Made by a program: the position numbers and the translations under genes | Shown: in pieces, positions 15,709 to 64,000 of the stretch | Layout of the letters: each line of letters begins with the position of its first letter | Numbering within the stretch: the first letter of the stretch is position 1 | Origin: Sugiyamaella lignohabitans | Lineage: Eukaryota > Ascomycota > Dipodascomycetes > Dipodascales > Trichomonascaceae | DNA: 64,000 nucleotides | Assembly (NCBI RefSeq): GCF_001640025.1 | Contig: NC_031672.1 | Span: forward strand, 124,001-188,000 | Direction of reading: 5' to 3' | Notes under the pieces: model-generated | The model's input: the letters and a program-made list of their open reading frames with translations, nothing else | The model's database searches: none | What the model was told of the DNA's origin: nothing

Positions 15709-18700
15709 TTAAACCAATGCAATTATCATAAGGATGCAGGACACATTTGCCAACCATGATATAGAAGTGTCAAGAAGGTGACCAGAAGCACTATTGCTCT
15801 GTTCAACAGGAGCTGTACATGAAGCTCCTTCACATGGGGCTTCAGAGGGAGCAGGAACCACAGCTGGTGGTGGCTCCTGACAGTCTCCGCCGGAACACGA
15901 GCTAACTGACGGAGGAGCTGCTCCTTGACAATCCGCACCGGTACAAGGTGTTGGAGCGGGAGGCGGACAATTGGGTCCCGAACATGGACTTCCTTCTGGA
16001 AGTGCAGCAGAAACCACTGGCAAACTTGTACAAGTAGTTCCAGAGCACGGTGTAGCTGGAGGACCAGTTGGAACTGGCAGAGCCGGGCTAGTTATACAAC
16101 CTGAACCGGAACAGAGAGGTTGAGGTTTGACAGAACCAGTAGCAACCGGCTGAGAAACACATTCAGGTCCAACACAGGGTGTCTGACTAGCAACTGAAAG
16201 CGATGATTGCAATGTGGGTACAATTGAATTACAATCGGCTCCAGTGCAAGGACTCACAACAGGGGGAACTGCTGAGACACATGCTACTCCAACACAAGAA
16301 GTCTCCACAGGGACAGGGATACTCGAGCCCGAAGATAGAGGACTCTGAACAGATGGTCCTGAAAGTGGAACAGGTGGAGAATTAGGTGGCAAAGAAGGAG
16401 AAGCGGCAGGCATGGTCTGAGGCCCTGAGATGCTTTCGGTGCAGCTTAGACAAGGAGTAGTCAGCGTTGTTTGGCACTCCGGACCAACACAAGGTGAAAT
16501 CGGAGCTGACAAAGTTGAAACAGAAATGGGTACCGATGGTGCCAGGTTAGTTCCTGGAATCAGGGATGATGGAGCTGGTCCTTGCAACGTATTTGGCACG
16601 TACACAGGAACATTCGACAGTGCGCTTGCAGAGCCAGGAGCTTGTACCCCAGGAAGAACGACTCCAGTTGGAATAGATACTGGAGTTCCTGACTGGGTCT
16701 TGATTGAGAACTGCTGGGGTCTGGAAACTGACTGTGACTGAGTTCGTGGGAGAACTGTAACTGTTGACTGGGCAGTTTCCGGTAGAGGAAGACGCGGGCC
16801 AGGTAGCAATATTCCTGTCGTGGCTATGGTGTAAATTGAATCCTTACAAGTCGTGGATGGCTTCATTGTGCTAATTGTTAAGACTTCCTCAGAAATTGGT
16901 GTCTCACCAGGATAAAGTGGTGTATTGGGCGCACTAACAGGGTATGTAGAACATTCTTCTCCAGAGCAGATGACAGTTGTGCTTTGCTCTTCTGGGGGTG
17001 CCGAGGGAACAGACAATTCTTGTGTGGGTGCTAAAAGTGGCATCGTAGAGCAAGAGTCACCTGTACATACTTCCATATTCACAGTAGTTACTGGACTCGA
17101 CGTGGAGATCGAGGCAGAGGAAACAGCCAAACTGGTAGCCGCTGAAGTTGAAGCTTGCAATGGGCTAGTCTCTTGTGGAGCCGAACCACAAACTGCTGTA
17201 GTAACCGTACTACAGACATCTTTAGAGCAAACCACTGTGGTTCGAGTCGACATAGGCATATTGCATGACGACAAGGGAGACATAGTTATCTGGGAAGTTG
17301 ATGAAGAAGACAATGTAGATGGTCCAGAAACTGGCAATTGCTCATGGCTTTGGGAGGCAGAAGTGCTAGGGGATTTCGAAAGGGCTTCATTAGTTTGAGG
17401 TACACTCGAAGTCATTGGAGTGGTCGGCAAAGCAGAGGGTCCACACATTGTCAAGGTAACAGTACTACAGGCACCGTTAGAGCAAATCTTAGATGTTTGA
17501 GTAGACATTGGCAAGGTGCACGTAGGTGATCCAGTAACCGTTGTAGACTTGGGAGACTGAGAAGAGACGGATGCGGAAGAAGAAGCGGCCTGCGATTTAG
17601 TAGTCTCAGGTGCCATAGACTCAGGAGACTGCGAAGAAACAGGTGTGGCAGAAGAAGCTGCCATTGACTGAGTAGTTTCCGGAGACGTGGACTCATGAGA
17701 CTCAGGAGACTTCGAGGAGACAGGGGTAGAGGGAGAAGCTGACATTGTCGGTTTAGTCTCAGGTACCGTTGACTTAGGGGACTCCGTAGAGACAGGGGTG
17801 GCAGAAGAAGCTGCCATTGACTGAGTAGTTTCAGGAGAAGTGGACACAGGAGACTTCGAGGAGGAAGAGGTGACTGGAGAAGCTGACATTGTCGGTTTAT
17901 TCTCAGGTGACGTGGTCTCAGAGACAGGAGTTGAAGGAGCTACAGAAGTAGGTAGAGTAGAAGGTCCACACATTGTCAACGTAACGGTACTGCAGACACC
18001 GTTAGAGCAAATCTCAGTTGTCTGGGTTGAAATTGGCAAGCTACATATAGGGGATTCAGTTACTGGAGTAGACTCAGGTGACATTATCGGTTTAGTCTCA
18101 GGTGCCGTAGACTCAGGGGACAGAGAAGAGACATGACTGAAAGAAGATTCTGCTATTGTCTCTTTAGTCTCAGGAGATGTGGACTCAGGGGATTGTGATG
18201 ACACAGGAGTTGAAGGAGCCACTGTAGTAGATAGAGTAGAAGATCCACACATTGTCAAGGTGACAGTACTACAAGCGCCGTTAGAGCAAAGCTCGGTTGT
18301 CTGAGTAGACATTGGCAAGGTGCATGTAGGTGATTCAGTAATAGGTGTAGACTGAGGAGTCATGGACTCAGGGATGGCAAAAGAAACTGACATTGTCGGT
18401 TTAGTCTCAGGGGTTTGAGAAGAAACAGGACTGGCAGAAGAAGCTGCCATTGACTGAGTAGTTTCAGGAGACATGGACTCATGGGTGGCAGGAGAAGCTG
18501 ACATTTCAGGTGCCGTAGACTCGGGGGACTGAGAAGAGACATGACTGGAAGAAGATGCTGCCACTGTCTGTTTAGTCTCAGGCGAAATGGACACAGGGGA
18601 TTGTGAAGAGACGGAAGTTGAAGCAGCGATCGTAGTAGGTAGAGTAGAGGGTCCACACATTGTTAAGGTGACAGTGCTACAAGCGCCGTTAGAGCAAATC

Positions 18701-21700
18701 TCGGTTGTCTGAGTAGACATTGGCAAGGTACATGTAGGTGATTCAGTAGCAGGTGTAGACTGAGGAGACATGGACTCAAGGGCGGCAGGAGAGGCTGACA
18801 TTGTCGGTTTAGTCTCAGGTGACGTGGTCTCAGGGGGTTGAGAAGAAACAGGACTGGATGAAGAAGCTGCTATTGTCTGTTTAGTCTCAGGAGATGTGGA
18901 TTCAGGGGACTGGGAAGAGACGGGAATGGCAGAAGAGGCTGCCATTGATTGGGTAGTACCAGGAGTGGCCGACTCAGGAGATTTCGAGGAGACAGGAGTG
19001 GTAGAAGAAGCCATTGATTGAGTAGTTTCTAGTGCTGTGGACTCAGGGGACTCAGAAGAGACAGGACTGGCAGAAGTAGCTATCATAGATTGAGTCGTCT
19101 CAGGGGACTGTGAAGAGACAGGGGTTGAAGGAGATGCTGCCATCGTATTAGGCAAAGTAGCATGTCCACACATTGTCAAGGTGACGGTACTACAGGCACC
19201 ATTAGAGCAAACCTCAGTTGTCTGGGTAGACATTGGCAAGGTGCACGTAGGTGATTCAGTAACAGGTGTAGACTGAGGAGACTTTGAAGAGGCAGGAGTG
19301 GCAGGAGAAGCTGACATTGTCGGTTTAGTCTGAGGTGCTGTAGACTCAGGGGACTGAGAAGAGACAGAACTGAAAGAAGAAGCTGACACTGTCGGTTTAC
19401 TCTCTGGCGTAGTAGACTCAGGAGATTGCGAAGCAACTGGAGTGGCAGGAGAAGCTGCGGTCGATTGAGTAGTCTCAGGCGACGTGGTCTCAAGAGACTG
19501 TGAAGAGACAGGGGTTGAAGGAGATGCTGCCATCGTATTAGGCAAAGTAGCATGTCCACACATTGTCAAGGTGACGGTACTACAGGCACCATTAGAGCAA
19601 ACCTCAGTTGTCTGGGTAGACATTGGCAAGGTGCACGTAGGTGATTCAGTAACAGGTGTAGACTGAGGAGACTTTGAAGAGGCGGGAGTGGCTGGAGAAG
19701 CTGCTTGCGATTGACTAGTCTCAGAAGTTGTGAACTTCGGGGATTGGGGTGAGACGGGGATAGCAGAAGAAGCTGAAATTGTCGGCTTGGTCTCAGGTGA
19801 CTGCGATAAGACAGGAGTGGCAGAAGAAGCTGCCATGGAGGTGAGTTGAATAATAGGCGATTCAGTTTCCTCACTAAGTGGACAGGGTTCAGTCACCGTT
19901 ACTATACTGCAGACTTGTTCAGAACAGGTCACTTTCGTATGTGTGGTCATCGAAGCTGATGAGACCGAACTGACCAAAGAGGGAGCTGGTGTTGAAGGAC
20001 TCAGCGATAGAGATAGTGTAGAGCAACTCTCCCCGGAACATACCACAGTTGTTGTCAAGGCAGTTGTGGCCGAAGTAGACTCTACCGTAGCTGGGATTGT
20101 CTCGCACCCCTCTTCGGAGCAGACAACAGTTGTCGAGGCAACTATTGGTGAAACTGAGCGTGTCGTTGATGGAGTAGTTTCAGGTGACATAGACTCGGAG
20201 GAATGGGATGAGACCATGGTTGAAGGAGCCGCTGCCATCGTATTGGGTAAGGTAGTGGGTCCGCACATTGTCAAGGTAACAGTGCTACAGGCACCGTTAG
20301 AACAGATCTCAGTTGTCTGAGTTGACATCGGCAATGTGCACGTAGAGGACTCAGGAGCGGAGGCAGCCTTAATAGAGTTTGACGAGACAAGAGTGGAAGA
20401 AGCAGTCGCAACAGACTCTGTTGTCTCTGGCGAAATAGACTGACTGGTGTGGGACGAGGTAGGAGTAGGAGAAGTTGCGACAGACTCTGGTGTCTTCATA
20501 GGCGTAGACTGAGTGGACGGTGGGGAGATGGGAGCAGTAGGAGAAGCTGCCATTGATTGCGTGATCTCAGGATGCGCAGATTCAGACGACTGTGACGAGA
20601 CAGGAGCTGAAGGAGCCATCGTAGTAGGTAGAGTAGATGGTCCGCACATTGTCAATGTGACGGTACTACAAGCGCCATTAGAGCAAATCTCGGTTGTCTG
20701 AGTAGACATTGGCAAGGCGCACGTAGGCGATTCAGTAACTGGTGTAGACTCAGGGGACTCTGAAGAGGCAGGAGTGACAGGAGAAGCTGTCATTGATTGA
20801 GTACTCTTCGATACTGTTGACTCAGGGGACTGAGAAGAGACAGGACTGGATGAAGAGGCTGCCATTGTCTGTTTAGTCTCAGAAGAAGTGGACACAGGGG
20901 GTTGTGAAGAGACAGGAGCTGAAGGAGCCATCGTAGTAGGTAGAGTAGATGGTCCGCACATTGTCAAAGTGACGGTACTACAGGCGTCATTAGAGCAAAT
21001 CTCGGTTGTCTGAGTAGACATTGGCAAGGTGCACGTAGGCGATTCAGTAACTGGTGTAGACTCAGGGGACTCTGAAGAGGCAGGAGTGGCAGGAGAAGCT
21101 GCCATTGATTGAGTAGTCTTAGATACCGTAGACTCAGGGGACTGTGAGGAGACGGGGGTGGCAGAAGAAGCTGTCGTTGATTGAGTACTACCAGGAGAGG
21201 TGGACTCCGGAGACTTCGACGAGACGGGAGTGAAAGGCAAAGCTGACATTGTCATCTCTGGCGATGTAGACTCAGGGGACTCGGAAGAGACCGGACTGGA
21301 AGAAGAGGCTGCCATTGTCTGTTTAGTCTCAGAAGAAGTGGACACAGGGGGTTGTGAAGAGACAGGAGCTGAAGGAGCCATCGTAGTAGGTAGAGTAGAT
21401 GGTCCGCACATTGTCAAAGTGACGGTACTACAGGCGCCATTAGAGCAAATCTCGGTTGTCTGAGTAGACATTGGCAAGGTGCACGTAGGCGATTCAGTAA
21501 CTGGTGTAGACTCAGGGGACTCTGAAGAGGCAGGAGTGACAGGAGAAGCTGCCATTGATTGCGTAGTTCCAGGAGATATGGACTCAGGAGACTTTGAGGA
21601 GACGGGGGTGGCAGAAGAAGCTGTCGTTGATTGAGTACTACCAGGAGATGTGGGCTCAGGAGACTTCGAGGAGACAGGAGTGGCAAGAGAAGCTGCCATC

Positions 21701-24700
21701 GATTGAGTAGTCTCTGGTGTTGTAGACACAGGGGTCTCTGAAGAGACAGGAGTGGCAAGAGAAGCTGCCATCGATTGAGTAGTCTCTGGTGTAGACACAG
21801 GGGTCTCTGAAGAGACAGGTGTGGGAGAAGAAGCCGACATTGTCGGTTTAGTCACAGACGACGTTGACTCAGGGGACTGTGATGAGACTGGACTAGTAGG
21901 AGCAGTTCCGACAGATTCTGTTGTCTTCGGAGAAGTAGACGAAATCGTCATTGATTGGGTTGTCTCAGGTGCCTTGGACTCAGGAGTCTGAGAAGAGACT
22001 GGAGTTGAAGGAGATACCGTAGTACTAGGCAGAGTAGATGGTCCACACATTGTCAAGGTTACAGTACTACAGGCACCGTTAGAGCAAATCTCGGTTGTCT
22101 GAGTAGACATTGGCAAGGTGCACGTAGGTGATTCAGTAGCCGGGGTAGACTCAGTGGTCTGAGAAGAAGCGGGAGTGGCAGAAGAAGCTGCTGGTGATTG
22201 AGTAATCTCAGGTGCCATAGAAGAGACTGGAATTGATGGAGACACTGCCATCGTATTGGGCAAGGTAGCAGGTCCAGGTCCACACATCGTCAAAGTGACT
22301 ATGCTACAGCCGCCATTAGAGCAAATCTCGGTTGTCTGGGTAGACATTGGCAAGGTGCATGTTGGGGATTCAGGAGACTGCGAAGAAGAAGGAGTAGCAG
22401 GCGCTGCCTGTGATGTAGTTGTCTCAGGTGCCATAGACTCAGGAGACTGTGAAGAGACAGGAGTGGCAGAAGAAGCTGCCATTGACTGAGTACTTTCAAG
22501 AGAAGTGGAGTGAGAGGACTTAGAGGAGACAGGGATAGCAGGAGAAGCTGAAATTGCCGGTTTAGTCTCAGGTGCCGTAGATACAGGGGGCTGAGAAGAA
22601 ACAGGACTGGATGAAGAAGCTGCCGTTGTCTGTTTAGTCTCAGGAGAAGTGGAAACAGGGGGTTGCGAGGAGACAGCAATCGTACTAGGTAGAGTAGAGG
22701 GTCCACACATTGTCAACGTGACAGTATTGCAGGCGCCGTTGGAGCAAACCTCGGTTGTCTGAGTAGACATAGGCAGCGTGCAAGATGGCGTCTCAGGAGA
22801 AGGCGAAATTGTTGAGAGCTTTACGCTACTAGACCCAACGCTACTTTGAAGAGCTGGCACTGAAGCACTTGATGGAGTGACAGAAGACATGGAAGTTACA
22901 GAGGGGCATGGCATAGTTATAGTCACAGTGCTGCACACATTATTTGAACATGATACTGTGGTCTGTGTAATCATAGAAACAGATGCAGGCGCTGAGGTCT
23001 TGAGTGTAGATACAATGGATGCAGGCGACGATGAAGATGAAGCAGGTGGGTTCTCAAGAGCCACAGAGACGGATGATGTAGTGGCCACCGATGTCTCAGG
23101 AGTAGGAGCAGGTTTTGGCATCATTGTGGTGCAACCACCTTCATTGCAAACGACAGTTGTAGAAGCAATTGATGATACAGGTGCTGGGGTATGGGATGTA
23201 GAAACCGTAGACGGCAGTGATGAAGCAGGAGAGCTCTGAGGAGCAACAGAGACAGGGGAGGTAGTGGCCACCGATGTTTCAGGAGCTGGAGCAAGAGTAG
23301 GCGCTGGTATCATAGTGGTGCATCCACCCTCATTGCAAACGACAGTTGTAGAGGCCACTGACGATTGTGCTGAGGACTCGGGTGAAGAAACAGTAGATGC
23401 CGGTGATGAAGAAGCAGGAGAGCTCTCAGGAGCAGCGGAGACAGGGGAGGTGGTGACCACCGACGTCTCAGGAGCAGGAGCAGGAGCAGGTGCTGGCATC
23501 ATGGTGGTGCATCCACCCTCATTGCAAACGACAGTTGTAGAGGCCACTGACGATGGTGCTGAGGGCTCGGGTGAAGAAACAGTAGATGCTGGTGATGAAG
23601 AAGCAGGAGAGCTCTCAGGAGTAACGGAGACAGAGGAGGTGGTGGTCACCGATGTTTCAGGAGCAGGAGCAGGTGCTGGCATCATGGTAGTACATCCGCC
23701 TTCGTTACACACCACCATAGTAGAACCGACTGACGATGGTGGTGAGGGTGAAGAAACAGTAGATGCGGGTGAGGATGAAGCAGGAGAGCTCTCAGGATTA
23801 ACGGAGACAGGGGAGGTGGTGGTCACCGATGTTTCAGGAGCAGGAGCAGGTGCTGGCATCATGGTAGTACATCCGCCTTCGTTACACACCACCGTAGTAG
23901 AACCGACTGACGATGGTGGTGAGGGTGAAGAAACAGTAGATGCGGGTGAGGATGAAGCAGGAGAGTTCTCAGGAGCAACAGAGACAGGTGAGGTGGTGGC
24001 TGCCGATGTTTCAGGAGCAGGAGCAGGTGTTGGCATCATGGTTGTGCATCCACCTTCATTGCACACAACTGTTGTAGAGGCGACTGAAGAGACCAGGATC
24101 AAAGGAGAAGTAGAGGCTACCAATGACATTGGTGTAGATGCCGGTGATGAAGAAGCAGGAGAGCCCTCAGGAGCAACGGAGACAGGGGAGGTGGTGGCCA
24201 CCGACGTCTCAGGAGCAGGAGCAGGTGCTGGCATCATAGTGGTGCATCCACCCTCATTGCAAACGACAGTTGTAGAGGCCACTGACGATGGTGCTGAGGA
24301 CTCGGGTGAAGAAACAGTGGATGCTGGTGATGATGAAGCAGGAGAGCTCTCAGGAGCAACGGAGACAGGTGAGGTGGTGGCCACCGATGTTTGAGGAGTA
24401 GGAGTAGGCGCTGGTGTCATGGCGGCGCATTCACCTTCACTGCAAACGACAGTCGTAGAAACCACGGAAGAGGGTGCTGAGGACTCGGGCGAAGAAACAG
24501 TAGATGCGGGTGAGGATGAAGCAGGAGAGCTCTCAGGAGCAACGGAGACAGGTGAGGTGGTGGCCACCGATGTTTCAGGAGCTGGAGCAGGTGCTGGAGT
24601 CATAGTGGTGCATCCACCTTCATTACAGACAATCGTTCTAGAGGCGATTGATGATGGCGCCGATGACTCGGGTGCAGAAACAGCAGATGCTGGTGAAGAT

Positions 24701-27700
24701 GAAGCTGGAGAGCTCTCAGGAGCAACGGAGACAGGGGAGGTAGTGGCCACCGATGTCTCAGGAGCAGGAACAGGTGCTGACATCATGGTGGTGCATCTAC
24801 CCTCATTGCACACAACTGTATTAGAAGCAACGGATGATGCTGATACCGATGACTGGGGCTTAGTACTCTCAGATACGGGCGAAGATGAAGGAGGAGAGCT
24901 CTCAGGAGCAACAGAGACAGAAGATGTAGCGGTCACCGATGTTTCAGGCGAAGATGAAGCAGAAGAGCTCTCAGGAGCAATCGAGACAGAAGATGTGGCG
25001 GTCATCGATGTTTCAGGCGAAGATGAAGCAGGAGAGCTCTCAGGAGCAACCGAAACAGAAGATGTAGCGTTTTCCGATGTTTCAGGAGTAGGAGCAGGCG
25101 CTGGTGTCTTGGTGATGCATCCACCTTCATTGCAAACAACAGTCGTAGAGGCCACTGACGATGGTGCTGAGGATTCGGGTGAAGAAACAATAGATGCCGG
25201 TGGTGATGAAGCAGGAGAGCTCTCAGGAGCAGCGGAGATAGGGGAGGTAGTGGCCGCCGTTGTTTCAGGAGCTGGAGCAGGTGTTGGCGTCATAGTCGTG
25301 CATCCACCTTCATTACAGACAGTCGTTGTAGAAGGAACTGATGATAATGGCGCTGGGGTTTGTGAGGTAGAAACACTAGTAGCGGGTGAAGATGAAGCAG
25401 GAGAGCTCTCAGGAGCAACAGAGACAGACGATGTAGTAGCCACCGACGTCTCAGGCGCAGGAGCAGGTGCTGGCATCATGGTGGTGCATCCGCCTTCATT
25501 ACACACGATTGTGGTCGAAGCAACTGGTGATGTGGGAGCTGAAACAGGGAGTGTAGAAGCACTAGACATGAGTGAAGATGAAGCAGATGTGTTTTCAGTA
25601 GCAACGGAGACAGGGGTAGTGGCCAACGATGTTTCAGGAGCAGGAGCAGGTGCTGGCATCATGGTGGTACATCCACCTTCATTGCATACAATGGTTGATC
25701 CAATTGAAGGGGTTAAAGTATATTGTGAGCTCGTCATCATGGAAGAAATTATTGAATATGCTCCAGAGCTTGGAGGTACAGAAAACTCAGGGGGACCAAC
25801 CTTAGGTGTGGGGGATACATTTGGAGCCGATGAATAAGGGATCGGGTTGCGGTTACTAGAGGCACTGACGGACTCAGCTCTAGAGACTGTCATTACTTCT
25901 GAAGCCTGAGAATTCGTTTCAGAAATCGAATTTGACGACATAGTTGTGCAGACCCCAGCTGAACAGATAACAGTGATTGGGGTGGTTTCGACTAACGAAG
26001 ATGAGGAATAGGTTTTCAAGATGGAGTTCTCTGGCGGCGCATTAACTGTTATTGGAGTCGTGGGTATCCGAAGGGAAGGTGTCTGTGAATATGGTAACAT
26101 CGTCGAACAAATGCCGCCACTACAAATTACTGTAAGTTCGGCCGTAGCTGGTGAATTAGTGGACTGTTCAACCGGCTGACCAAAAGTAGAAGGACTAACA
26201 GAACTGACGATTGTAGGAATCATAGTACTACATATACCTTCTGAACAGATGACCGTAATAGATGGTGTGGATGGCGTGGAACTAGCAGTAACGGAGTAAG
26301 TGGATTGAGGTGTAGCTTCGAGCGTGCTGACAGTTGAGTGCGTGGCTGGTAGCATTGTGGTACATGTTCCAGCAGAGCAGACAACGGTAATTGATTCGAT
26401 TCCATTGTTGACGCCAGCTGCGCTAGTGCTCATTGTCGCCGTAACCAAAGACATAGAGCTCACACTATTTGATAAAGTCTGACAAACATCGCCATTGCAC
26501 ACGACTGTTATTGTCGGGGCAGATGTAGCGATTATTCTAGAATTGGATACGACCGTTTGGACTGGGCCTGGAAACTTAGTTAGTCCTGCAGCTAATGACC
26601 ATTATTTCTCATTAGTTTCGCACTTACCGTTAACAGTAGCGTATTGAGTTATCTCACTACTTTCTGTCTTCAATGGACACGGAATGGTTACTGTTACCGT
26701 GATTTCTTTGGTATTGCCTTGGATAGTGATCGGCATAGATGAAACTATGGTAGTGAGGGGTTCTGAAAGTTAGTAAAGTTGTAGAACTGCTGCTTCTGAG
26801 GGGAACTTACCGTTGGAGTAGGATGGTGTTGGAAGAACCATTGAAACCGTAGTTACAAATTGGTTAGTAGTACAGCCTGTGGCAGTACAAGGAACCGTGA
26901 CAGTGGTAAACATAGTTGTACCACCCTCGGTAACCCGCGCTGTATTCATTTCCGTTAGAGGACTCTCGTAAACAGTCAATTCAGACAGAGCCGTCTTCTC
27001 TGGACAAGGGAGAGTGACTGTCACGGTTATCATCTTGGTATTACCCTGGACTGCAATAGGAGTAGAAGAGACCACAGTTGTAACGGGCTCTAGAAAGTTG
27101 TTAATAGCTGTTCAGGTTTTAAATTTAAGTGGATTCACTTACCATTAGGATAGGAAGGGGTGGGCAAGACCATTGTGACAGTCGTTACCAACTGCTGCGT
27201 GGTACATCCCTTTGCTGTGCATGGAACAGTTACAGTTGTCAAGAGAGTTGTACCCTCTCCAGGTACTGGAGAGTTCTGAACCGAAATAAACTCAGTATAT
27301 GGGACCGACTGGGTGACAGTAGCACTTTCTGATATACTAGGGATGAATGTTCCGTAGATTGGAATTGTCGTCAGGACGTAAGATCGTCCAGAACATTTCG
27401 TTGGATGCTGGCAAGGAACTGTCTCTGTGCGATAGGATGTGTATGGAATACCTGCGGGAGACACAATGGAAGTCTCCACTGATGGTTCTATGCTTGAGGA
27501 CGTTGTCGGAACATTGGTGCCGTAAATAGGAATTGTGGTAACAATATAAGACTTTCCTGAGCATTTAGTGGGATGCTGACAAGGAACTGTCATCGTTGAA
27601 TAAGAAGTATAAGGAACTCCAGTTGGGAAAATACCTGGTGCTTCTGAAATGCCAATAGTGGTAATTGATGTCGAAATTGCTAATGAGGCAGTCTTTGTAG

Positions 27701-30700
27701 CGACTTCAGTCGCTTCAGCAGACATAGATGTGACCAATGCAATTGTAGTAACCATATAAGATTTTCCAGAACATTTCATAGAATTTTCGCATGGCACAGT
27801 CTTGGTTAGGTACGAAGTGTACTGCCCAACGGTTAGGCTGCTCATAGCTACTCCAGTTTGTGTTTCGCTTGGAAGCATAGCAATTGTCGTCACCAATACC
27901 GAACTACCAGAACATTCTGCAGGATTAGTACAAGACACAGTCATGGTGGTGTAACCGGTGGCACCCCTTTCAGTTGAAACAGGGACGATTGGTAAGGTTG
28001 TGACCATGACAGACTTTCCGGAACATTCAGCAGGATTAGTACATGATACAGTGACCGTGGCATATCCTGTTGATCCAGCTTGAACGGGGTTCGCGGACTG
28101 GGATACTGGGACAGTAGTTACCATGATAGACTTTCCAGAACATTCAGCAGGATTAGTGCAAGAGATAGTCATAGTCGTGTAGGCGGTAGCACCCATTTCA
28201 GTTGGAGTAGGAACAATAGGCAAGGTGGTTACTATGATAGACTTTCCGGAACATTCAGCAGGATTAGTACATGATATAGTGACCGTGGCATATTCTGTTG
28301 ATCCAGCTTGAACGGGGTTCGCGGACTGGGATACTGGGACAGTAGTTACCATGATAGACTTTCCAGAACATTCAGCAGGGTTAGTACAAGAGATAGTCAT
28401 AGTCGTGTAGGCGGTAGCACCCATTTCAGTTGGAGTAGGAACAATAGGCAAGGTGGTTACTATGATAGACTTTCCGGAACATTCAGCAGGATTAGTACAT
28501 GACACAGTGACCGTGGCATATCCTGTGGATCCAGCTTCAATGGGGTTTGCGGCTTGGGATGCTGGGATAGTGGTGACCATGACCGAGTTACCAGAACACT
28601 CAGCAGGATTAGTGCAAGAAATAGTCATTGTGGTGTAGGCGGTAGCACCCATTTCAGTTGGAGTAGGAACAATAGGTAAGGTTGTGACCATGACAGACTT
28701 TCCGGAACATTCAGCAGGATTAGTGCATGATACAGTGACTGTGGCATATTCTGTTGCTCCAGTCGATTGTGGAACAGCAAGCGTCGTTACTATTGCCGAG
28801 CTACCAAAGCATTCAGCAGGATTAGTGCAAGAGACAGTCATAGTTGTGTAACCAGTGGCACCCATTTCAGCTGAAGTAGGAACAATAGGCAAGGTGGTTA
28901 CTATGATAGACTTTCCGGAACATTCAGCAGGATTTGTGCACGACACAGTGACCGTGGCATATCCTGTGGATCCAGCTTGAACGGGGTTCGCGGACTGGGA
29001 TACTGGGACAGTAGTTACCATGATAGACTTTCCAGAACATTCAGCAGGATTAGTGCAAGAGATAGTCATTGTGGTGTAGCTGGTAGCACCCATTTCAGTT
29101 GGAGTAGGAACAATAGGTAAGGTTGTGACCATGACAGACTTTCCGGAACATTCAGCAGGATTAGTGCATGATACAGTGACTGTGGCATATTCTGTCGGGC
29201 CAGTCGATTGTAGAACAGCAATTGTTGTGACCTTTACTGAGTGACCAGAGCATTCTGCAGGATTAGTGCAAGAGACAGTCATAGTTGTGTAGTCGGTAGC
29301 ACCCATTTCAGTTGAAGCAGGGACGATTGGTAAGGTTGTGACCGTGGCATATCCTGTGGATCCAGCTTGAACGGGGTTCGCGGACTGGGATACTGGGACA
29401 GTAGTTACCATGATAGACTTTCCAGAACATTCAGCAGGATTAGTGCAAGAGATAGTCATAGTCGTGTAGGCGGTAGCACCCATTTCAGTTGGAGTAGGAA
29501 CAATAGGCAAGGTGGTTACTATGATAGACTTTCCGGAACATTCAGCAGGATTAGTACATGATAGAGTAACCGTGGCATATCCTGTGGATCCGGATTCAAT
29601 GGGGTTCGCGGCTTGGGATGCTGGGATAGTGGTGACCATGACCGAGTTACCAGAACATTCAGCAGGATTAGTACAAGAGACAGTCATAGTTGTATAGCCG
29701 GTAGCACCCATTTCAGTTGAAGCAGGGACGATTGGTAAGGTTGTGACCATGACAGACTTTCCGGAACATTCAGAAGGATTAGTGCATGATAAAGTAACAG
29801 TGGCATATTCTGTTGCTCCAGTCGATTGTGGAACAGCAAGCGTCGTTACTATTGCCGAGCTACCAAAGCATTCAGCAGGATTAGTGCAAGAGACAGTCAT
29901 AGTTGTGTAACCAGTGGCACCCATTCCAGTCGACGTCGGGACAACTGGTAAGGTCGTGACTATAATAGACTTCCCGGAACATTCAGCAGGATTAGTGCAA
30001 GGCACAGTCATTGTGATACAGGGAACCGTAGTCACTACAACCGATTTTCCGGAACACTTTGTAGCATCTGTGCAGGGAATGGTCATGGTTGTGTAATCAG
30101 TAGCGCTGAACTCAGTTTGTGAGCTAGACTGAGGTACCGCGACTGTTGTAACGATAAGAGATCTTCCAGAGCATTCACTAGGGTTCGTACAATCCAAAGT
30201 GATAGTATTGTAAGAAGTTACCTGAGGTGTACTGATTGGTGGCACTGGTAGAGTTGTAACAAGGATTGAGCTACCAGAACAATCAGCCGGATTGGAACAA
30301 CTCACTGATACTGTCACATAGGATGAAAGAGATAGATCGGTTAATGTTGTGGTACCGATTTCGGTCAAAGGGATGGTTGTTGTCTGTTGTGGTCTTTTAC
30401 CCGTTAGTCTTCCTCAAAATATTCTGTAGCCCTTTGTGGCAGGTTTAACTTACGTTGATTCGGATTGAGAAGAATTTGACCATCTCACTGATGACGCTGG
30501 AACCATAGATGAGTTTTCAAATGAAGAGGAAAGTCCGCTTTGCTGCTTAGTACTCATTGGATTGTTGGTTGACATATTCATGCTCATTCCTGTAGATAAC
30601 GGAAGAGAATTAGTACGAATAGAGGAAATTTCAGAACAGGTTGAGCATATCGTGGAAGTATTCAGAGCGCCATTTTCCGTTCCGGTGATGATTGAGCTTA

Positions 30701-33700
30701 CTGTTCCTGAAGTAGATAAGCATGTTATACATTCCGTGGTGCTATTCAGCGCGCCTGTTTCTACTCCACCCTTAGAGGAGGTAGACCCACTGATCTCACT
30801 GGCTGGAGTAGTGGACACATATGAGGTCTTAGACGAACAAGTTATACATTCTGTGCTTGTATTTCTGGCACCATTATCGGCACCCGAAATCGAAGAAGAC
30901 TTGCTTGCACTAGTGAAACTGGTCTCTGCCGAGCACGTGAGGCAAATAGAAGAGTGGGAAGTGGTTGAGACAGCTTCATTTCCTTTCGATGAGGATAAAT
31001 TCGAGGATAATGATGCCGATGAGCTGCACGTTAAGCACACAGTACTAGAATTAAGAGCACCTGTCTCTGTTCCTTTGTTGATTGTGCTAGAAGATAAGTT
31101 AGTAAACAAATGGGATGACGTTAGAGACTTGAGAGTTGACGCTGTGGAATTATAAACAAGGGAAGCCGAACTTGTGACTATAGACGAGTTTGATTGCACC
31201 CCTCCAGTTGAACTACAGGTCAGACAAATAGAACTACTGATATGACTTGTGCTCAAAAGTGAAATGTTACTGGAAGAGGAGATAGAGTGTCCAGTGGATA
31301 CAGCAGCAGATGAATGTGTTGATTTAGACTCGATCGACGAAGTACAAGTTAAACAGTTCGTACTAGTGTTCCGAGCTCCTGTTTCAGTTCCACTGATAAT
31401 GGATGACTTAGTACCTGCGGTCTGGCTAGTCGAAGTTAAGTTTGAGAAATGACCCGACGAGTATGTGCTGGTGTTCAAAGCACCCGTCTCAGAACCGCCG
31501 AACGTAGATAGGACTGATTGTGATCCGGTAGCTGAGCTGTTGGAGAACACATAACTGTTTGTGGCATTTGACACTATCGTAGAGTTATTTGAGAAGAGAG
31601 GAGCAGTGGTAACATTGACTGGAGCAGTAGAAGTGGGACTCGAGACGGCACTCGTGCTGTTCGAGAACAGTGGAGAACTAGTAGTATTCAATGGCACCGG
31701 AGTACTGGACAAAGCAGGTGTGGTGATGTTAAAGGATCCAGAACCACTCGTAGTATTGACTGGTGCAGAAGCAGTGGAACTGTTCGAAATCACAGGAGCA
31801 CTAGTAAGAGGAACCGTGGTGCTATTGGAGAATACTGGACTGCTTGTGGTGTTCAAAGCAGCAGAGGTAATGTTCGACGAAACTGGACTACTAGTAGGGG
31901 AAACTGTGGTACTGTTGGAGAACACCGGACTACTGGTAGTATTCAGGGGCATAGAAGTAGTGGTGTTCAACGCAGCAGATGTACTGTTGGCGAACACAGG
32001 AGAACTAGTAGGAGGAACTGTGGTGCTGTTGGAGAACACAGAATTGCTTGTAGTATTCACACGTACAGAAGTTGTGTTCAGGGCTCCAGTGGTACTATTT
32101 GAGAAAACAGGAGTGCTTGTTCGATTAACAGGATTCGTGGATGTGCTATTCAAAAGGTTTGAGCTGCCGGTACCTGTACAAGTTGGGCATAACATTGACG
32201 AAGAGTTCGAGAATGTCGGACTAGAAGTAGCATTTACTGGTGCAGAGGTAGTTGTGTTGAGAGCAACGCTGGAGGCATTGGAGAACACCGGAGCACTCGT
32301 AGTATTGAGTAGCACGGAAGCAGTGGTGTTCAAAGCTGCAGTTGTGCGCTTGGAAGACAAAGGAGTACTATTAGGAAGAACCGTGCTGTTAGAGAACACT
32401 GGACTGCTCGTAGTGTTCACGGGCACATAAGTAGTGCTGTTCAACGCAGCAGACGTACTGTTTGAAAACACAGGAGTAGTGGTGGACAAGATTGTGGTAT
32501 TAGAGAACACTGGACTACTGGTAGTATTCACGCGCACAGAAGCAGTGGTGTTAAGTCCAGCAGTGGTATTATTTGAGAACACAGGAGAACTTGTGCGATT
32601 TGCAGGATCCATGGATGTGCTATTCAAAAAGTGTGTGCTGCTGTTTCCTGTACAAGTGGGGCACAACGTAGTTGAAGAGTTTGAGAATACTGGACTAGTA
32701 GTAGCATTTACTGGTGCAGAGGTAGTCGTGTTCAGTGCAGTACTGGAAGTGTTAGAGAATACAGAGGTACTAGTAGTATTCACATGCACAGAAACAGTCG
32801 TGCTGTTGGAGAATACAGGAGTGCTTGTTCGATTAACAGGATTCGTGGATGTGCTACTCAAGAAGTGTGGGCTGCTGTTACCTGTACAAGTAGGGCACAG
32901 CGAAATCGAAGAGTTCGAGAATACTGGACTAGTAGTAGCATTTACAGGGGCAGAGGTAATAGCGTTAAGAGCAGCACTAGAGGTGTTGGAGAATACCGGA
33001 GCACTCGTAGTATTCACATGCCCTGAAGCAGTGGTACTGTTTGTCAAAACTGGGCTGCTAGTAGTATTCATACGCATAGAAGAAGTGGTGTTAAGTGCCG
33101 AACTGGTGCCATTTGAAAACACAGGAGTACTTGTATGATTGACAGGTCTCACGGATGTGTTATTCAAGAAGCTTGAGCTGCTGTTACCCGTACAAGTTGG
33201 GCATAACGTACTCGAAGAATTTGTGAATACTGGACTCGTAGTAGCATTCACCAGGGCAGATGTAGTCGGGTTCAGAACAGTGCTGGAGGTGTTAGAAAAC
33301 ACAGAGGCACTAGTAGTATTCACATGCACAGAAGTAGTGGTATTCAACGCAGCAGAACTGTTCGAAAACACTGGAGAAGTGGTAGGCAAGGTTGTGGTAT
33401 TAAACGCAGCTGTGGTACTATTGGAGAATACCTGGCTACTGGTAGTATTCACATGTACTGAAGTAGTGGTGTTCAAAGCAGGGGTGGTACTATTCGAGAA
33501 AACGGGAGTACTGGTATGATTGACAGAGCTTATGGATGTACTATTCAATGAGTCTGAGCTGCTGTTACCTGTACAAGTAGGGCATAACGTACTCGAAGAA
33601 TTTGTGAATACTGGACTCGTAGTAGCATTGATGGGGGCAGGAGTAGTCGTGTTCAAAGCAATACTAGAAGTGTTGGAGAACACAGGGGTACTAGTAGTAT

Positions 33701-36621
33701 TGAGTGGTACAGAAGCAGTGGTGCTGTTCGAGAACACAGGTGTGCTTGTGTGATTGGTAGGATCCATAGATGTGCTATTCAAGAAGTGTGAGCTACTGTT
33801 TCCTGTACAAGTAGGGCACAACGTAGTTGAAGAGTTTGAGAATACTGGACTAGTAGTAGCATTTACTGGTACAGAGGTAGTCGTGTTCAGAGCAACGCTG
33901 GAGGTATTGAAGAATACCGGAGCACTCGTAGTATTGACTGAGACAGAAGCCATGGTATTCAAAGCAGCAGTGGTGCTGTTGGAGAACACTGGGCTACTGG
34001 TCGTATTCACGGGCACAGAAGCAGTGGTGTTTAGTCCAGCAGTGGTGCTATTTGAGAAAACGGGAGTGCTTGTGTGATTGGCAGGATCCATGGATGCGCT
34101 ACTCAAAAAGTGTGAACTACTATTTCCTGTACAAGTTGGGCATAACGTTGATGAAGAGTTCGAAAATACCGGACTCGTAGTAGTATTTACGGGGGCCGAG
34201 GTAGTCGTGTTCAGAGCAACTCTGGAGGCGTTAGAAAATACAGAAGTAGTGATAGCAGAAGTCACATTCTTCAAGGGAACAGTCGAGCTGTTCCCGAACA
34301 CAGGAGCACTGGTAGTATTGACTAGCGCAGAAGTAGTGGTGTTAAGGGAATGAGATGTGCTGTTGTAGTGTGGAGCAGTGGTGCTATTGGCACGTATATC
34401 AGAAGTAGTGGTATTCAGAGCAACCGTCGAGCTGTTAGGAAAGACAAACGTGCTGTAATTCATTGAACTACTGTTCTGGGAAAGCGAAGTTTTATTTCCA
34501 GAGTACGAAGCTTGAGTAGTAATGTTTGAAACTCCTGTTTCTGTGCATGTTGGGCATATTCTCGTTGTATTAGAAAATGTAAGAGAACTGCTAGCATTGA
34601 GTGTACTTTGTGTGAATGTAGTCAGGTTGGCAGTCGAGCTATTAGAAAACATAGGAGAACTGGTTCTATTAACACCAAGAGAGCTAGTGTTCAACGAAGG
34701 GCTCGAGCTGATGGACAACAAGGAATTAGTATTCAAAACAGTAGAACCATTGGAAAACACGGAGCTGCTTGTCGCATTCAGTGGTTTTGGTGTTGTGATA
34801 TGCAAAGAAATAGAAGTGTTTGATGCTGAAAGGCTAGTACTGTTAAGAGGATAACTAGCGGTAGTAGCCAGAGGAAGCGTAGAACTATTAGAAAATGCGT
34901 GTGCACTAGTGCTGTTTGTCTGCGTGGAGCTTGTGATATTTAAAAGAGAAGTAGTGTTGCTCGATTGTAGTGCTGTCGCAATTGTATTTGAGGATGTGGA
35001 ATGAGTACAAGTTAGACACCACGTTGAGTTATTAGAAAAGGCGGAGATAGAGGTTCCATTGACAGGTGCTGAACTAGTTACATTGCCGTGGAGGCTAGTA
35101 GTAGTATTTCTGATCGTGTAACTTGTAATAGATGCTCTGTTAGCAGCAGTCGATACAGAGACTCTCGTTGTATTAAATGAAGCAGTCGAGCCATTGAATA
35201 ATGAACTCCCTGTAGTTCCAACAGTGGTAAGATTGGACAGATTCTGCGAAGCGGTAGTGATATCTAATGATTTCGTTGTATCGAATTGTGTAGATGTAGA
35301 ATTAGTGACAGAGGTGGGTTTTAAACTACTGGTTGTGCCATCAGTATTTGGACCCAGAGACTGATTACTACTCAAGAATGATGTTGTAGATAAATTCATA
35401 GAACTCAGAGTGTGACTCTGTACTGTTGTTATGCTACTGTTTAGACAAGTGAGACAGGCTGTAGTGGTATTCGAGGCAGTTGTGACATTGGAATATATCG
35501 AAGTTGAGCTCGACAAAGAAGAACTAGTTTTTGGGGTCACTACACTTGAATTCGAAACAGATGTTGTATTCAAAATGTGACTTGTTAGACTCGACGAGGC
35601 TTGGGATATACTGCTAGAACTTGAATTGAATCCCGAGGAAAGGAAACTGACCGAGCCCGATGTTTTATTTCGAGTCTGTATAGAAGAGGATGTTCTAGTC
35701 GAGAATACCAACTCACTGGTAGAGCTTGTATTTGATACAGATGTTAAACTCGACCTTGCAGAAGATGCTCCTAGACTGCTATTAGAGGTCGAAGAAACAG
35801 AACTCGCACTGGAAGTAGATAGCAGGGCACTCGTGTTGGAGATTGAAGTTGCTTTCACAGAACTATTGTTTTTAATCCAATCCGTGGATGTCTCCACCAC
35901 TTGATGCAGTTCACCGCTGTAGTATTCATAACTTGTAAATGTTACGACGCTAGGGACCCAAGATCCACTTCGGGTTGATGCTGAGTATGTTAGTTGTAAA
36001 GTAAAAATAGTGTACAATTAAATCATACTTACTTGATGATGCGCTGGTGGAATTGCTTGTCACTAGAGAGCTTGAGGATGGCTCAGAACTAAGTGAGGTT
36101 TCTATCCTTGTTAATTTATTTCACATTTTTGCTCGCCTCTGTAATGGCTATACATACTTGAAGTACTAGAATTTGTCTTGAATTCTGAGCTTGACCGAGC
36201 AGTACTACTTGATTCTAATATCGGTTAGTTTGGCGGCTTATTGATTGATCTCATTCAAAATAAACCTACTTATTGACGAAGACAAGGAGGAAGACAAAGA
36301 CGATGATGAAGATATTTGAGACGATGAAGCAGTCAGAGATGTACTGGAGTTAAAAGTGGACGATGTTGAGTTCAAATAAGAGTTCGAAGTTGTATTAAAA
36401 CCGCTGATTCCTGGTGAGGACATATACAGTGCACGTAAGGCAGTTGGACGAGTAGGAGCATCAGTCAAGTCATCGGTTTTAGTTATTACCACTAGTTCTG
36501 AATTTGATAGAGAGTTTGCATGAGCATCATTCCCCGGAGACAATCCAGGACCAACACTCAAGCTATTCCCCAAGGAAAGCGAGCTAACGACCAAAATGGC
36601 GTTGCTGAGAATTGCTCGCAT
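15709..36621 (-). CDS. Giant GPI-anchored mucin-like cell-wall protein/adhesin, eight exons, 6,842 residues
   Basis: Exons (minus strand): 36621-36270, 36214-36158, 36101-36033, 35980-30454, 30393-27143, 27089-26811, 26762-26628, 26567-15709. The seven introns are 48-60 bp, each with GTAAGT, GTATGT or GTAGGT donors, a CTAAC/TTAAC-type branch site and AG within about 11 nt. Phases match at every junction (1,1,1,2,1,1,1) and the sum is 20,529 nt. The first exon begins MRAILSNAILVVSSLSLGNS, a signal peptide. The last ends in NSASGHLLDTS plus a hydrophobic tail ILMIIALV, a GPI-attachment signal. In between: a sequon-rich Asn/Ser/Thr region, then Cys-pair modules of four kinds in tandem arrays. 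No PA14, lectin or other known ligand-binding head is visible. Expected role is wall structure or adhesion. Exons 6 and 7 are duplicates of one unit. The gene could be split wrongly by automated callers because each large exon is open alone. Confidence 0.82.
15800..16500 (-). repeat. C-terminal Cys-x4-Cys stalk of the giant wall protein
   Basis: About ten short units of the form CxGxxC separated by Pro/Ser-rich linkers (CVGPEC, CVGVAC, CTGADC, CSGSGC, CSGTTC, CSGPNC, CSGGDC, CEGASC). They lie immediately before the GPI signal. Spacing and sequence differ from the longer modules upstream but the Cys-x4-Cys pair is retained. Confidence 0.85.
17180..22790 (-). repeat. Array of LPMSTQTTE-CSNGAC modules in exon 8
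   Basis: About 14 modules, each with TCTLPMSTQTTEICSNGAC followed by STVTLTMCGP, so four Cys per module. They are separated by variable Ser/Thr/Pro linkers built from SSQSPEST-like decapeptides. Module cores are nearly identical while linkers vary in length, which indicates repeated unequal exchange. Confidence 0.9.
23050..25700 (-). repeat. Array of VVCNEGGCTTMMPAPAPAPETS units in exon 8
   Basis: About 14 units of roughly 60 residues. Each begins with TTVVCNEGGCTTM and a PAPAPAPETS segment, then a Ser/Ala/Pro-rich linker. One unit (about 24,900-25,080) has an internally triplicated linker. Earlier related units (CSAGTC, CSEGIC, CSGGIC, CSAGVC) lie N-terminal to it up to the exon start. Confidence 0.9.
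27160..30350 (-). repeat. Array of CTNPAECSGKS-VTT modules in exon 5
   Basis: About 26 tandem units of 35-40 residues, each with YTTMTVSCTNPAECSGKS followed by an IMVTTLPIVP-like strand-forming stretch. Each unit has one Cys-x5-Cys pair. The C-terminal units diverge (PCQHPTKC, then PCTAKGCTTQQ) and grade into the modules of exons 6 and 7. One unit has lost its Cys pair by an in-frame deletion near 29335-29350. Confidence 0.92.
30550..35900 (-). repeat. Sequon-rich mucin-like region in exon 4
   Basis: Degenerate repeats of the SPVFSNSTTAALNTTTS type, packed with N-x-S/T sequons (NTT, NST, NSS, NAT), so very heavy N- as well as O-mannosylation is predicted. Cys-x2-Cys pairs (LCPTCTGNSS in the middle, CLTCSS near the C-terminal end, ECITC) recur between blocks. 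Sequence is low-complexity but has kept its reading frame across more than 5 kb. Confidence 0.88.
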
Positions 36622-39381
36622 TATTTAGAACCAGATTCAAAATGTTTTCTATAGCTTTTCTTCTGATTTCAATAGATGGTTAAATTGAAAAGAAAAGACC
36701 AATTAATAGATACAAATAAACCTGGTGGAAATCGATCAGAAGATTTCTTTTGCCGTTACTGATATGTTAGCTTATAGCAAGTTTCTGGTAGTGATGAAAC
36801 GATGGATTCTAACAGAACAGCTATAATGATCAATTGAGGCAAATGGAAAAAAACCTGATTGCGATAAGTGTTATGATATATTCTTTTTGGCAGAGACAAG
36901 TTTTATTTTTCAAGACAAGGTCCAGTTCTCAATGAGACATTGGAGTCTATATAAAGAATGCTTGATGCTCGCTCCTGAAGCGTTTTGGAAACTCTTGTGC
37001 CTGAATGATCCTAGACATAATACTAGAAAGGGCGGGAGAAATAGGCGGTTTGCAAAACAAATAATATTTGTAACTATAATTATACAGAAAAATACCAATA
37101 GGCAAGTTTGGCGGAAAGTTTTCGCGCATCTCGAGAATAGCTGCCATTGAGTTTAACGAAGAAGGTTATAGTAGTTGGGTGGCAGAATCTAGTCACCATT
37201 GACCACTGATGCATTTCACATTTCATCATTGATTTTTATCGTTTACTGCCTATTACATTTAAGAGACATTGGCAAAATTCCGTGACAACCAACGTGAAGG
37301 TGCTCCTGTTTGTATGCATTGCCGTTGTTGATCTGTGGGAAATGGCTGTCGATCAGGTACCAGGTTGAGTGGTTTCTTTTTCAGGAACCCGCATGATAAT
37401 GCATAAGTACCTGCTGTTTAATTTAATAAAGAACAAGGCATTTGCTTCTAGATCTGAAACATTAATAAGGCAGCCTCTTGTATATAATACGACTGACAAT
37501 TGAACTGGTATTAATTTTCCTGTTCTACTATTGGGTGATCTACTATACTACCTTACTAGACTTCGATAATCGAAGTCAAACCCGTATAGATAGCAGTAAA
37601 CGTGTGAGTTTGTATTGCCAATTGCCTCAGTGGACTTGAATGTTTTGAGTAGTAGCATTACCGGTAGTGTCTGTGTTGGCTGGTCATGGTGGTCAACAGC
37701 AGCGGTCAGATATAGTTAAAATGATCTTAACTGCAGTCTAGGGCTACAGCAAAACAAAAGATATTAAACTTAAACCACAATGCTGTGCATTATAATATGG
37801 ACTGCAATGACCTCTGGTGTGCTCGGGAGCCAAGCGTACAAGATGGGACCAATTGTAATTGCAGTTTTCATTGAAGATTATAAATCAATACGGCGGAAAT
37901 ATAGTTGCTATACTGCAAAAAGTGAGGGCTACTAAGAATAGACCTTATTGATGCAAGCAAACGACCTTCTATTATATATACGGTTTAATATCTAATAGAA
38001 AAAAAGCTTCACACTGCACTTGAGCTCTGAGCTTGGGCTCCTAAACCCTCATATCCACCAGAAGTACAAACCAGACTACCAGGTTGTCACGAGAGCCCGT
38101 ACTACTAAATATAGGAAGTCATTGCTATCGTAAGTTAATATCTAAAGTCGCCGCAATTATATTGAGGGAACGAGAAAGATGAATGCATTGCACAATAAGG
38201 TAGATAATACAATCAGACGACGCGGTGAGGGCAGAATGAAAGGTGCCTCGTGCTGAGCCTCAAGGGCCATTTTACGAACAGACACGCCGTTTTACTGATT
38301 TCATTCACTGGTTTATCCTGCTACCCTATTAAAGAGCTTATTTAGTACCAGCTACAATGTTGTCTGCTTTTAAATTTGAATCCAACTGTTTTAGACTGAA
38401 ACTCTGCTACACCTGCGAATCAGTATCGAATTGATACAACAGTCTGACCTCGACAATAATCACAGGAACCGAGTTTCGTATGCTAGCCTCAGACCTGTAT
38501 TAGCCTCTTTAGCACTGTCTCCGGCGCTTTGATGTCAACACTGAGTTCTATGAACCACCCTACAGGGCAGCTCGCATGGTAGTAGTCTGCAATTGTCCGG
38601 AGTGGGAAACTACCGCAAAAAACGTTTTGGCACCTGGAGTTTGGCGGTAGACTATCCCTAAAGCCATTTGACCAACACTGAAGTTCATGATCGTGAAAGT
38701 ATATATAAAAATCATAAACATGTGTCATGTAGTAAGATAGACAGGATACTCTACAGTACTTGACACCCTGTGAGGTTTAGACAAAAATTGGGCAATGGCC
38801 CAGAAATTAAGCACGGCATTTCCATATACAATCAAACTGTTATAGCCATATTTGGTTCAACCAGAAAAATCAACAATCTACTAAAAACTATAAACACATG
38901 GGTTCACATGAAACGTACTTAGGCGTTTATTTAGACCAGTGAAGAGAGCGCACGGCGCTAGCTGAACTGGCAGGTGAACTCTGGCAATTCACACGATCAA
39001 ATTGGAGTTTTCTCGAACGTTCCGATAAGGCTGTTAGATGTACATGATACATAATATTCCTTGCCCAGACCCAAGATCCCAGTGACATTATTCTCCATAG
39101 AACGCGATTTGATTGAATTTGTTGATCTACTGTGATATTTTTCAGGATTAGATCAAAAATTTGAACAGTTTTGGGCCATTCCAGTCATTTCCGATACATC
39201 TGCAACTTACAAATAGACGTTGAGGTTTACAACTGGCAGTAATTCCATACAGATAGAGCTAATTAATTTTTTGGGGCTTGATTCGAGTTTTGATCTTGTT
39301 GAATTAGTGATATTCCTGGATCCTAGATATATTTTTTTTCTTTCATTTGCTTTTTTGGTTAATCACTAGAAATTACTTAAA
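36622..39381. other. Long divergent intergenic region between wall-protein and J-protein genes
   Basis: About 2.8 kb with no supportable gene on either strand. Short open frames at 36887-37150 and 38489-38728 have no family resemblance. Long upstream regions are usual for regulated adhesin genes such as FLO11. It contains a three-unit heat-shock element (39009-39023) nearer the J-protein gene. Confidence 0.55.
39009..39023. promoter_or_regulatory. Heat-shock element (three inverted nGAAn units)
   Basis: Sequence tTTCt-cGAAc-gTTCc is a perfect contiguous nTTCn-nGAAn-nTTCn array, the consensus binding site of trimeric Hsf1. It sits about 360 bp upstream of a J-domain co-chaperone gene, the kind of gene Hsf1 controls. 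Match is seen directly. Function is inferred. Confidence 0.7.
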
Positions 39382-63900: not shown

Positions 63901-64000
63901 CGCAGTCTCAAGTCCAGCCACCTAAGGGGATTCAAACACCTACTCGCAAATACACTACTTCGATTGTGAACAAAGAGTCTTATAGCAGAAGCAAAAGCCC
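57958..64000 (+). CDS. ASH1-type SET-domain histone H3K36 methyltransferase, partial (runs off the window)
   Basis: Exons: 57958-58750, 58818-58911, 58966-59098, 59157 onward. Introns are 67, 54 and 58 bp, with TACTAAC or ACTAAC branch sites. At least 1,954 residues lie in the window and the frame is still open at 64000. AWS Cys cluster: PCNCEQNCDDNCLNR and CDPETCPFGTNDCGNR (about 285-325). SET domain about 345-455: GFGLRA, NHSCNPNCEMQKW (from 411), ELTYDYNF (Tyr448, Tyr450). Post-SET CHCGSDNC lies at 463-470. NPNCEMQKWYVNG and ELTYDYNF resemble ASH1L more than Set2. After the SET domain come about 1,480 disordered residues with five AT-hook-like cores (RPGRPRKD, RGRPKKN, RGRPRKE, RGRPPKN, IGRPKKN) and a long Met-Gly-Pro repeat. 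Two adjacent ATGs start the frame. A longer or differently spliced C-terminus outside the window is possible. Confidence 0.88.
62502..62960 (+). repeat. 12-bp minisatellite coding for Met-Gly-Pro/Gln-Pro repeats
   Basis: Roughly three dozen 12-bp units in two families. First come CAGATGGGTCCT-like units (Gln-Met-Gly-Pro), then ATGGGACCGCCT and ATGGGACAGCCT units (Met-Gly-Pro/Gln-Pro). The frame is kept throughout because the period is a multiple of three. Confidence 0.92.

Follow-up and report, generated by a model that had tools for sequence, protein, structure and literature searches.

Large GPI wall proteins that are rich in Ser/Thr and contain tandem repeats are already known. For the Als proteins, repeats of about 36 residues and, in the case of Als5, the amyloid core SNGIVIVATTRTV have been described (PMC6308950, PMC10144551, PMC9306254). 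The mating mucins Aga1 and Fig2 of S. cerevisiae are wall adhesins with repeated CX4C motifs, and cysteines in both partners are needed for adhesion (PMC6308950, PMC10144551). In bacteria, the so-called periscope proteins are surface stalks whose reach is set by tandem repeats (PMC9704523). Within a stretch of 64,000 nucleotides of the Sugiyamaella lignohabitans genome (contig NC_031672.1, positions 124,001 to 188,000; in the following, the window), we analyzed a minus-strand locus that, as judged from its sequence, very probably constitutes one functional eight-exon gene. S. lignohabitans is a wood yeast that is not known to be pathogenic. The genome analyzed here encodes a GH30 protein of 470 residues with Glu at positions 199 and 292 and a mature mass of 49,533 Da, and the xylanase SlXyn30A published for S. 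lignohabitans has 470 residues, the catalytic Glu199 and Glu292, and a mass of 49,539 Da (PMC8840591). The fuller interpretation, namely that one functional eight-exon gene encodes a 6,842-residue mucin-like GPI wall protein that is probably an adhesin, appears likely to us.

A sequence-only reading of this DNA had proposed eight exons on the minus strand between 36621 and 15709, and splicing bore out the coordinates, lengths, and phases of this model. The spliced sequence has the size that had been claimed, namely 20,529 nt or 6,842 residues without an internal stop codon, and all seven proposed introns of 48-60 nt could be retraced in the sequence, each with a donor, a branch site, and an acceptor. 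The five ORFs that had been counted could also be retraced: three long minus-strand frames are listed at a 150-aa cut-off (15709-26601, 27135-30413, and 30450-36017), and the open frames behind exon 1 (127 aa) and exon 6 (113 aa) bring the total to five.

Exon 1 (36270..36621, 352 nt; all gene coordinates refer to the minus strand) starts with the ATG at 36621, which is preceded by an in-frame TAA two codons upstream, and encodes a putative signal peptide (MRAILSNAILVVSSLSL) and Ser-rich sequence. Intron 1 (36215..36269, 55 nt; GTAGGT..ACTAAC..TAG), intron 2 (36102..36157, 56 nt; GTATGT..ATTAAC..TAG), and intron 3 (35981..36032, 52 nt; GTAAGT..ACTAAC..CAG) set off exon 2 (36158..36214, 57 nt) and exon 3 (36033..36101, 69 nt) and lead to exon 4 (30454..35980, 5,527 nt), which is Ser/Thr/Asn-rich and contains CX2C (LCPTCTG) motifs. 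Intron 4 (30394..30453, 60 nt; GTAAGT..ACTAAC..AAG), which has the weakest acceptor of the seven, is followed by exon 5 (27143..30393, 3,251 nt) with its CX5C units. Intron 5 (27090..27142, 53 nt), which has the branch TTAAC, forms with its exon flanks a duplicated unit whose other copy contains intron 6 (26763..26810, 48 nt), and the two introns enclose exon 6 (26811..27089, 279 nt). Exon 7 (26628..26762, 135 nt) and intron 7 (26568..26627, 60 nt), which ends at an in-frame CAG, precede exon 8 (15709..26567, 10,859 nt), which encodes a Ser/Thr/Pro-rich stalk with CX4C motifs and extends through the stop codon.

The phases of introns 1 to 7 are 1, 1, 1, 2, 1, 1, and 1. Retention of any single intron leads to a stop (at residue 128, 152, 187, 2003, 3088, 3192, or 3232 for introns 1 to 7, respectively), which falls inside the retained intron or just past its end. 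Alternative donors and acceptors for introns 1 to 5 were rejected, as the length differences that they cause are not multiples of three and the frame is thereby broken. At intron 7, a second in-frame CAG lies 6 nt downstream, ending at 26562, and this acceptor is equally possible as the chosen one, so two residues at the exon 7/8 junction are uncertain.

The agreement of phases and frame over the seven junctions had been regarded as unlikely to arise by chance. The agreement itself stood, but it is weaker evidence than had been supposed because the introns had been picked to fit, and the count of splice signals and the duplicated exon-intron unit described below are stronger evidence than the frame arithmetic. 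For the signal count, we used an intron pattern (GTA[AGT]GT, YTAAC, then HAG, in a total of 40-95 nt) that was devised after the introns were seen. On the gene strand, this pattern matched seven times in 20,913 bases, each time at a proposed donor, and the ends of the matches coincided with the proposed ends for six of the seven introns, the match at intron 7 halting at an AAG that lies 7 nt short of the in-frame CAG. In 300 first-order Markov sequences, there were 0.67 matches on average and 4 at most, and the opposite strand of the gene contained one. Chance open frames were ruled out by the spliced frame without a stop codon together with seven pattern matches where 0.67 were expected. A 200-kb genome sample contained 10 matches per strand (5.0 per 100 kb per strand, which corresponds to about 1 per 20.9 kb), and no 20.9-kb segment of the sample had more than 4; outside this locus, the plus strand of the window had up to 5 matches in 20.9 kb, spread over several genes.

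Genome-wide, GTAAGT..CTAAC..YAG was found 648 times, compared with 124 times in a reversed control (overlapping acceptors being counted separately), and is therefore the usual look of an intron in this genome. When intron signals were required to join frames of at least 50 codons on both sides, the 200-kb sample yielded seven introns, with the donors GTAAGT (six) and GTAGGT (one) and a branch-acceptor distance of 7-10 nt. In the window, the same test returned introns 4, 5, and 6 of the giant gene and three introns outside that gene, including a doubtful one at 3988 with a GAG acceptor and one at 11152 that precedes a SIR2-family frame (PF02146). Exons 2, 3, and 7 are too short for more than three of the seven giant-gene introns to pass, and introns 1 to 3 and 7 rest on signals and frame. 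As introns are reported in only about 5% of S. lignohabitans genes (PMC5499181), seven introns in one gene make this gene an outlier.

The predicted protein has a mass of 683 kDa without sugars, a pI of 4.6, and one [KR]R site. With 22.6% Ser and 18.1% Thr, it displays the high Ser/Thr content that is a feature of fungal wall mannoproteins. It contains 223 cysteines, with 51 CX4C, 25 CX5C, and 18 CX2C pairs, and five tryptophans (167, 194, 480, 1993, and 6828). A hydrophobic stretch at residues 3-18 belongs to the putative signal peptide (residues 1 to about 20). Residues 1-2001 (exons 1-4) are Ser/Thr/Asn-rich and harbor CX2C motifs and nearly all N-X-S/T sequons (170 of 174). Residues 2002-3223 (exons 5-7), about 1,200 residues, comprise CX5C units, then related larger units. 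The CX5C array (27873..30320, minus strand) consists of 21 units, each about 37 residues long and marked by CTNPAECSG or a variant of it; an Als5-like beta segment ([IVMLA][IVM]VTT) is present in most of them, and the units are 34-39 residues apart, two longer gaps excepted. According to a simple rule for beta-prone segments, which was devised after the sequence was seen, 30 of 32 such segments are in exons 5-7, where shuffling of the region gave an expectation of 7.1 and a maximum of 13 in 500 shuffles, and the 2 segments outside exons 5-7 compare with 7.4 expected.

Residues 3224-6842 (exon 8) make up a Ser/Thr/Pro stalk of about 3,600 residues, in which CNEGGC and CTLP..CSNGAC units are followed by a CX4C end rich in Pro and by a GPI-type tail. 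An array of 14 VC[NS]EG[GERI]C units (22990..25707, minus strand), 12 of which read exactly VCNEGGC, has a PAPAPAPE-like stretch after most units, and 13 units like CTLPMSTQTTEICSNGACSTVTLTMCG are found amid Ser/Thr/Pro linkers (17365..22806, minus strand). The putative GPI signal (15712..15804, minus strand), recognized by eye, consists of NSASG, a short spacer, and the hydrophobic tail WLANVSCILMIIALV, and this C-terminal tail is the hydropathy maximum of the whole protein. Similar long blocks also occur within exon 8 (20591-21153 and 20747-21771; 312-bp period with 94% match and 450-bp period with 87%), and these repeat blocks suggest that the length of the stalk may still vary among strains.

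As neither a homologue nor a known adhesive domain was found in the parts that were searched, the functional assignment rests on analogy, and by this analogy we lean towards a surface adhesin. The chain would be secreted, heavily O-mannosylated, and, over its first 2,000 residues, N-glycosylated; its GPI anchor would then be exchanged for a link to wall glucan, and the chain would project from the wall as a very long, flexible brush. The anchor-proximal Ser/Thr/Pro part of 3,600 residues would serve as the stalk, and the 1,200-residue zone of exons 5-7, with a beta-prone segment every ~37 residues, would be the sticky part, which could cluster molecules side by side and zip them to neighbors or surfaces, as is thought for Als/Flo repeats and amyloid cores. 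The CX4C pairs may either hold small loops closed or form bonds between molecules, as suggested for Aga1/Fig2.

A serious rival reading accepts the gene model and sees in the protein mainly a protective or spacing mucin coat instead of an adhesin, with possible roles as an anti-adhesive brush or in wall porosity, desiccation, or enzyme retention. It would agree with the fact that Pfam recognized no folded ligand-binding domain at the N-terminus, with the Ser+Thr content of 40.7% and the 170 sequons up to residue 2,001, and with the internal position of the beta-prone zone, away from the tip. However, the regularly spaced beta-prone segments exceed the composition-based expectation, and a plain coat would not need them; we regard this alternative as somewhat unlikely.

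Within the adhesin reading, a bolder version can be formulated, which we consider quite speculative: a micrometre-long wall mucin, enlarged partly through duplication of whole exon-intron units, whose adhesive part is an amyloid-like zipper of 20-30 evenly spaced beta segments in the middle of the chain and which is produced in up to 16 splice variants. Exons 2, 3, 6, and 7 are all of phase 1-1 and multiples of three in length, and each is therefore skippable in frame; with four skippable exons, splicing could yield up to 16 surface variants from one gene, and alternative splicing by skipping of these exons would be possible in principle.

If the main interpretation is right, a yeast that is reported to have introns in only 5% of its genes (PMC5499181) has a wall protein gene with seven introns. 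The reach of a mucin is roughly 0.25 nm per residue, and the 6,842-residue protein would then be long enough to extend well over a micrometre from the cell. Annotation readily misses or splits genes of this type, and the largest members may therefore be absent from inventories of surface proteins in yeasts other than Candida and Saccharomyces.

As the sequons stop at intron 4, two genes that meet there are the natural rival of the single gene. Exons 1-4 would then encode a secreted, N-glycosylated protein of 2,002 residues, with the TAA in the donor of intron 4 as its stop codon, and exons 5-8 would belong to a separate wall protein with its own unseen first exon. The composition does change sharply at this point, with 170 of the 174 sequons before and 4 after it, the cysteine motifs switch from CX2C to CX5C/CX4C, and the AAG acceptor makes this the weakest junction. 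AAG acceptors are mildly enriched genome-wide (116 compared with 64 in the control, with a slightly narrower branch-acceptor gap than in the YAG count), and in the 50-codon test another intron with this acceptor connects frames of 104 and 76 codons. Several aspects speak against two genes. The exon 5 frame opens only 36 nt after the exon 4 frame has reached its stop, introns of 48-60 nt offer little room for a terminator and a promoter, and the donor GTAAGT and the branch GACTAACG of intron 4 are canonical. Exon 5 opens in phase 2, and exon 4 is the sole exon that ends in phase 2. Coding-like repeats reach up to the exon 5 acceptor, with 103 residues in frame before the first ATG (194 in exon 4 and 38 in exon 8), and exons 1-4 by themselves have no wall anchor.

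We also scanned the gene strand between 35980 and 26600 for the 12 most hydrophobic starts among 147 ATGs, considering GTAAGT donors only, and none of these best 12 was a separate signal-peptide-like start with a GTAAGT donor feeding exon 5. The ATGs at 34597 and 29578 score above the exon 1 start, yet they have no GTAAGT donor, and the third high-scoring ATG, at 27944, is a repeat within exon 5. Separate genes with their own starts for exons 5-8 were thus not found among the best 12 of the 147 ATGs, and we judge the two-gene arrangement to be highly improbable.

The single eight-exon gene is supported, as it appears to fit every test that we ran, and the duplicated exon-intron unit offers, if the model is right, an internal control for splice-site prediction. 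The end of exon 5, intron 5, and the start of exon 6 resemble the end of exon 6, intron 6, and the start of exon 7, and the two units are copies of one ancestral unit. Over the 70 flanking codons, the copies differ at 12, 4, and 50 first, second, and third codon positions, respectively, which amounts to 38 synonymous codon changes and 15 amino-acid changes, and the third-position excess is seen on each side of the junction (5/1/27 upstream and 7/3/23 downstream). The cores of introns 5 and 6 are 61.5% identical, compared with a shuffled mean of 60.7%. Third-position divergence beside unlike intron cores is what two real introns would be expected to leave and gives strong support to these two junctions.

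Coding constraint was also examined in the repeat families of exons 4, 5, and 8, where pairs without a defined positive dS were dropped. The median dN/dS was 0.08 for LCPTCTG (21 of 21 pairs), 0.14 for CX5C (176 of 210), 0.19 for CNEGGC (88 of 91), and 0.10 for CTLP (75 of 78), although dN is biased downward in these values because the repeat units were chosen by amino-acid motif; the duplicated unit is the cleaner evidence. That the gaps are frameshifts and stops in a decayed or wrongly assembled gene is extremely improbable, for although the frames are broken seven times and giant repeat genes are prone to assembly error, every interruption has a donor, branch site, and acceptor with spacings like those of other introns of the genome, the long repeat arrays of exons 4, 5, and 8 are free of such interruptions, and the third-position divergence in the duplicated unit and the low dN/dS also argue against decay.

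Elsewhere on the contig that contains the window (C1, 232890-233389), four similar GTAAGT..GCTAACA..TTAG introns are about 150 bp apart with short repeated exons between them, as if exon-intron units had been duplicated in tandem in another gene. Several neighboring features of the window were noted as well. A region of ~2.7 kb without a 150-aa ORF (36622-39369) lies between the giant gene and a divergent TPR/DnaJ gene, and a long promoter region at this place would suit complex regulation. On the plus strand, a SET-domain frame (PF00856) that stays open for at least 1,625 residues runs off the window (59124-63998); the domain is followed by AT-hook-like and acidic stretches, as seen by eye, and by a long (QMGP/MGQP)n repeat that is encoded by 12-bp tandem repeats at 62505-62929. 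Earlier exons of this gene may be located at 57937-58911, beside the intron-pattern matches at 58751 and 58912. On the minus strand, 9115-9705 and 7400-9178 form one gene that is split by a 98-nt GTAAGT..CAG intron at 9258 and has an ARMH3_C domain (PF08427) in its downstream frame.

Searches for relatives of the giant protein covered domains, structures, proteins, and the genome itself. With exons 4, 5, and 8, Pfam gave nothing over the cut-off up to E = 1, and DUF1908, Hikeshi-like_N, and DUF1508 appeared below it; the first 260 residues and exon 6 had no match up to E = 0.001. A PDB search with exon 5 up to E = 1 had no hit, and no protein relatives were obtained for exon 4, exon 5, or residues 3160-3630 of the exon 8 frame in a length-filtered search of a collection that is possibly poor in yeast proteins. 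In the S. lignohabitans genome, where only the best candidates were scored, no copies outside the gene were detected for exon 4, exon 5, the last 600 residues, or the CNEGGC array; the second place for exon 5 was exon 6, and the last 600 residues led to three further places, all within exon 8. In the literature searches on these points, we found neither a size ranking of yeast wall proteins, which was also absent from word look-ups in PMC6023273, PMC11542307, PMC6308950, PMC8621652, and PMC8746771, nor publications that link Sugiyamaella with cell wall and adhesin; the claim of the sequence-only reading that the protein is among the largest yeast wall proteins is plausible.

Compared with known systems, the giant protein shares with Als5 and Als1 the apparent plan of a GPI wall protein with a long Ser/Thr stalk. 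The tandem repeats of ~36 residues in Als and ~37 residues here resemble each other in length and pattern only, and the SIIVTTLPIV-type beta segments resemble the amyloid core SNGIVIVATTRTV of Als5. In contrast to Als, neither an Ig-like/invasin N-terminal domain nor Candida_ALS repeats were found by Pfam in the scanned exons (1-6 and 8), the repeats have a CX5C pair, the beta-prone segment recurs some 20-30 times in the middle of the chain, and the gene has eight exons. The protein is also several times longer than Als proteins. With Aga1/Fig2, it has the repeated CX4C in common, with 51 pairs, which is a match at the level of the motif only; unlike in those adhesins, there is no WCPL, as none of the five tryptophans is in such a motif and residue 480 reads WCLT. 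The Flo flocculins likewise have Ser/Thr tandem repeats and a GPI-type end, and the promoter of FLO11 is long, which can be compared with the ~2.7 kb upstream of the giant gene (36622-39369), whereas PA14, Flo11, and flocculin-repeat (PF00624) domains gave no Pfam match in the exons scanned here. Periscope proteins are similar in being surface stalks with tandem repeats, but these bacterial proteins have folded rod domains and a bacterial type of wall anchor. What is unusual here is the length, the eight exons in an intron-poor genome, the duplicated exon-intron unit, and the beta zone in the middle of the chain.
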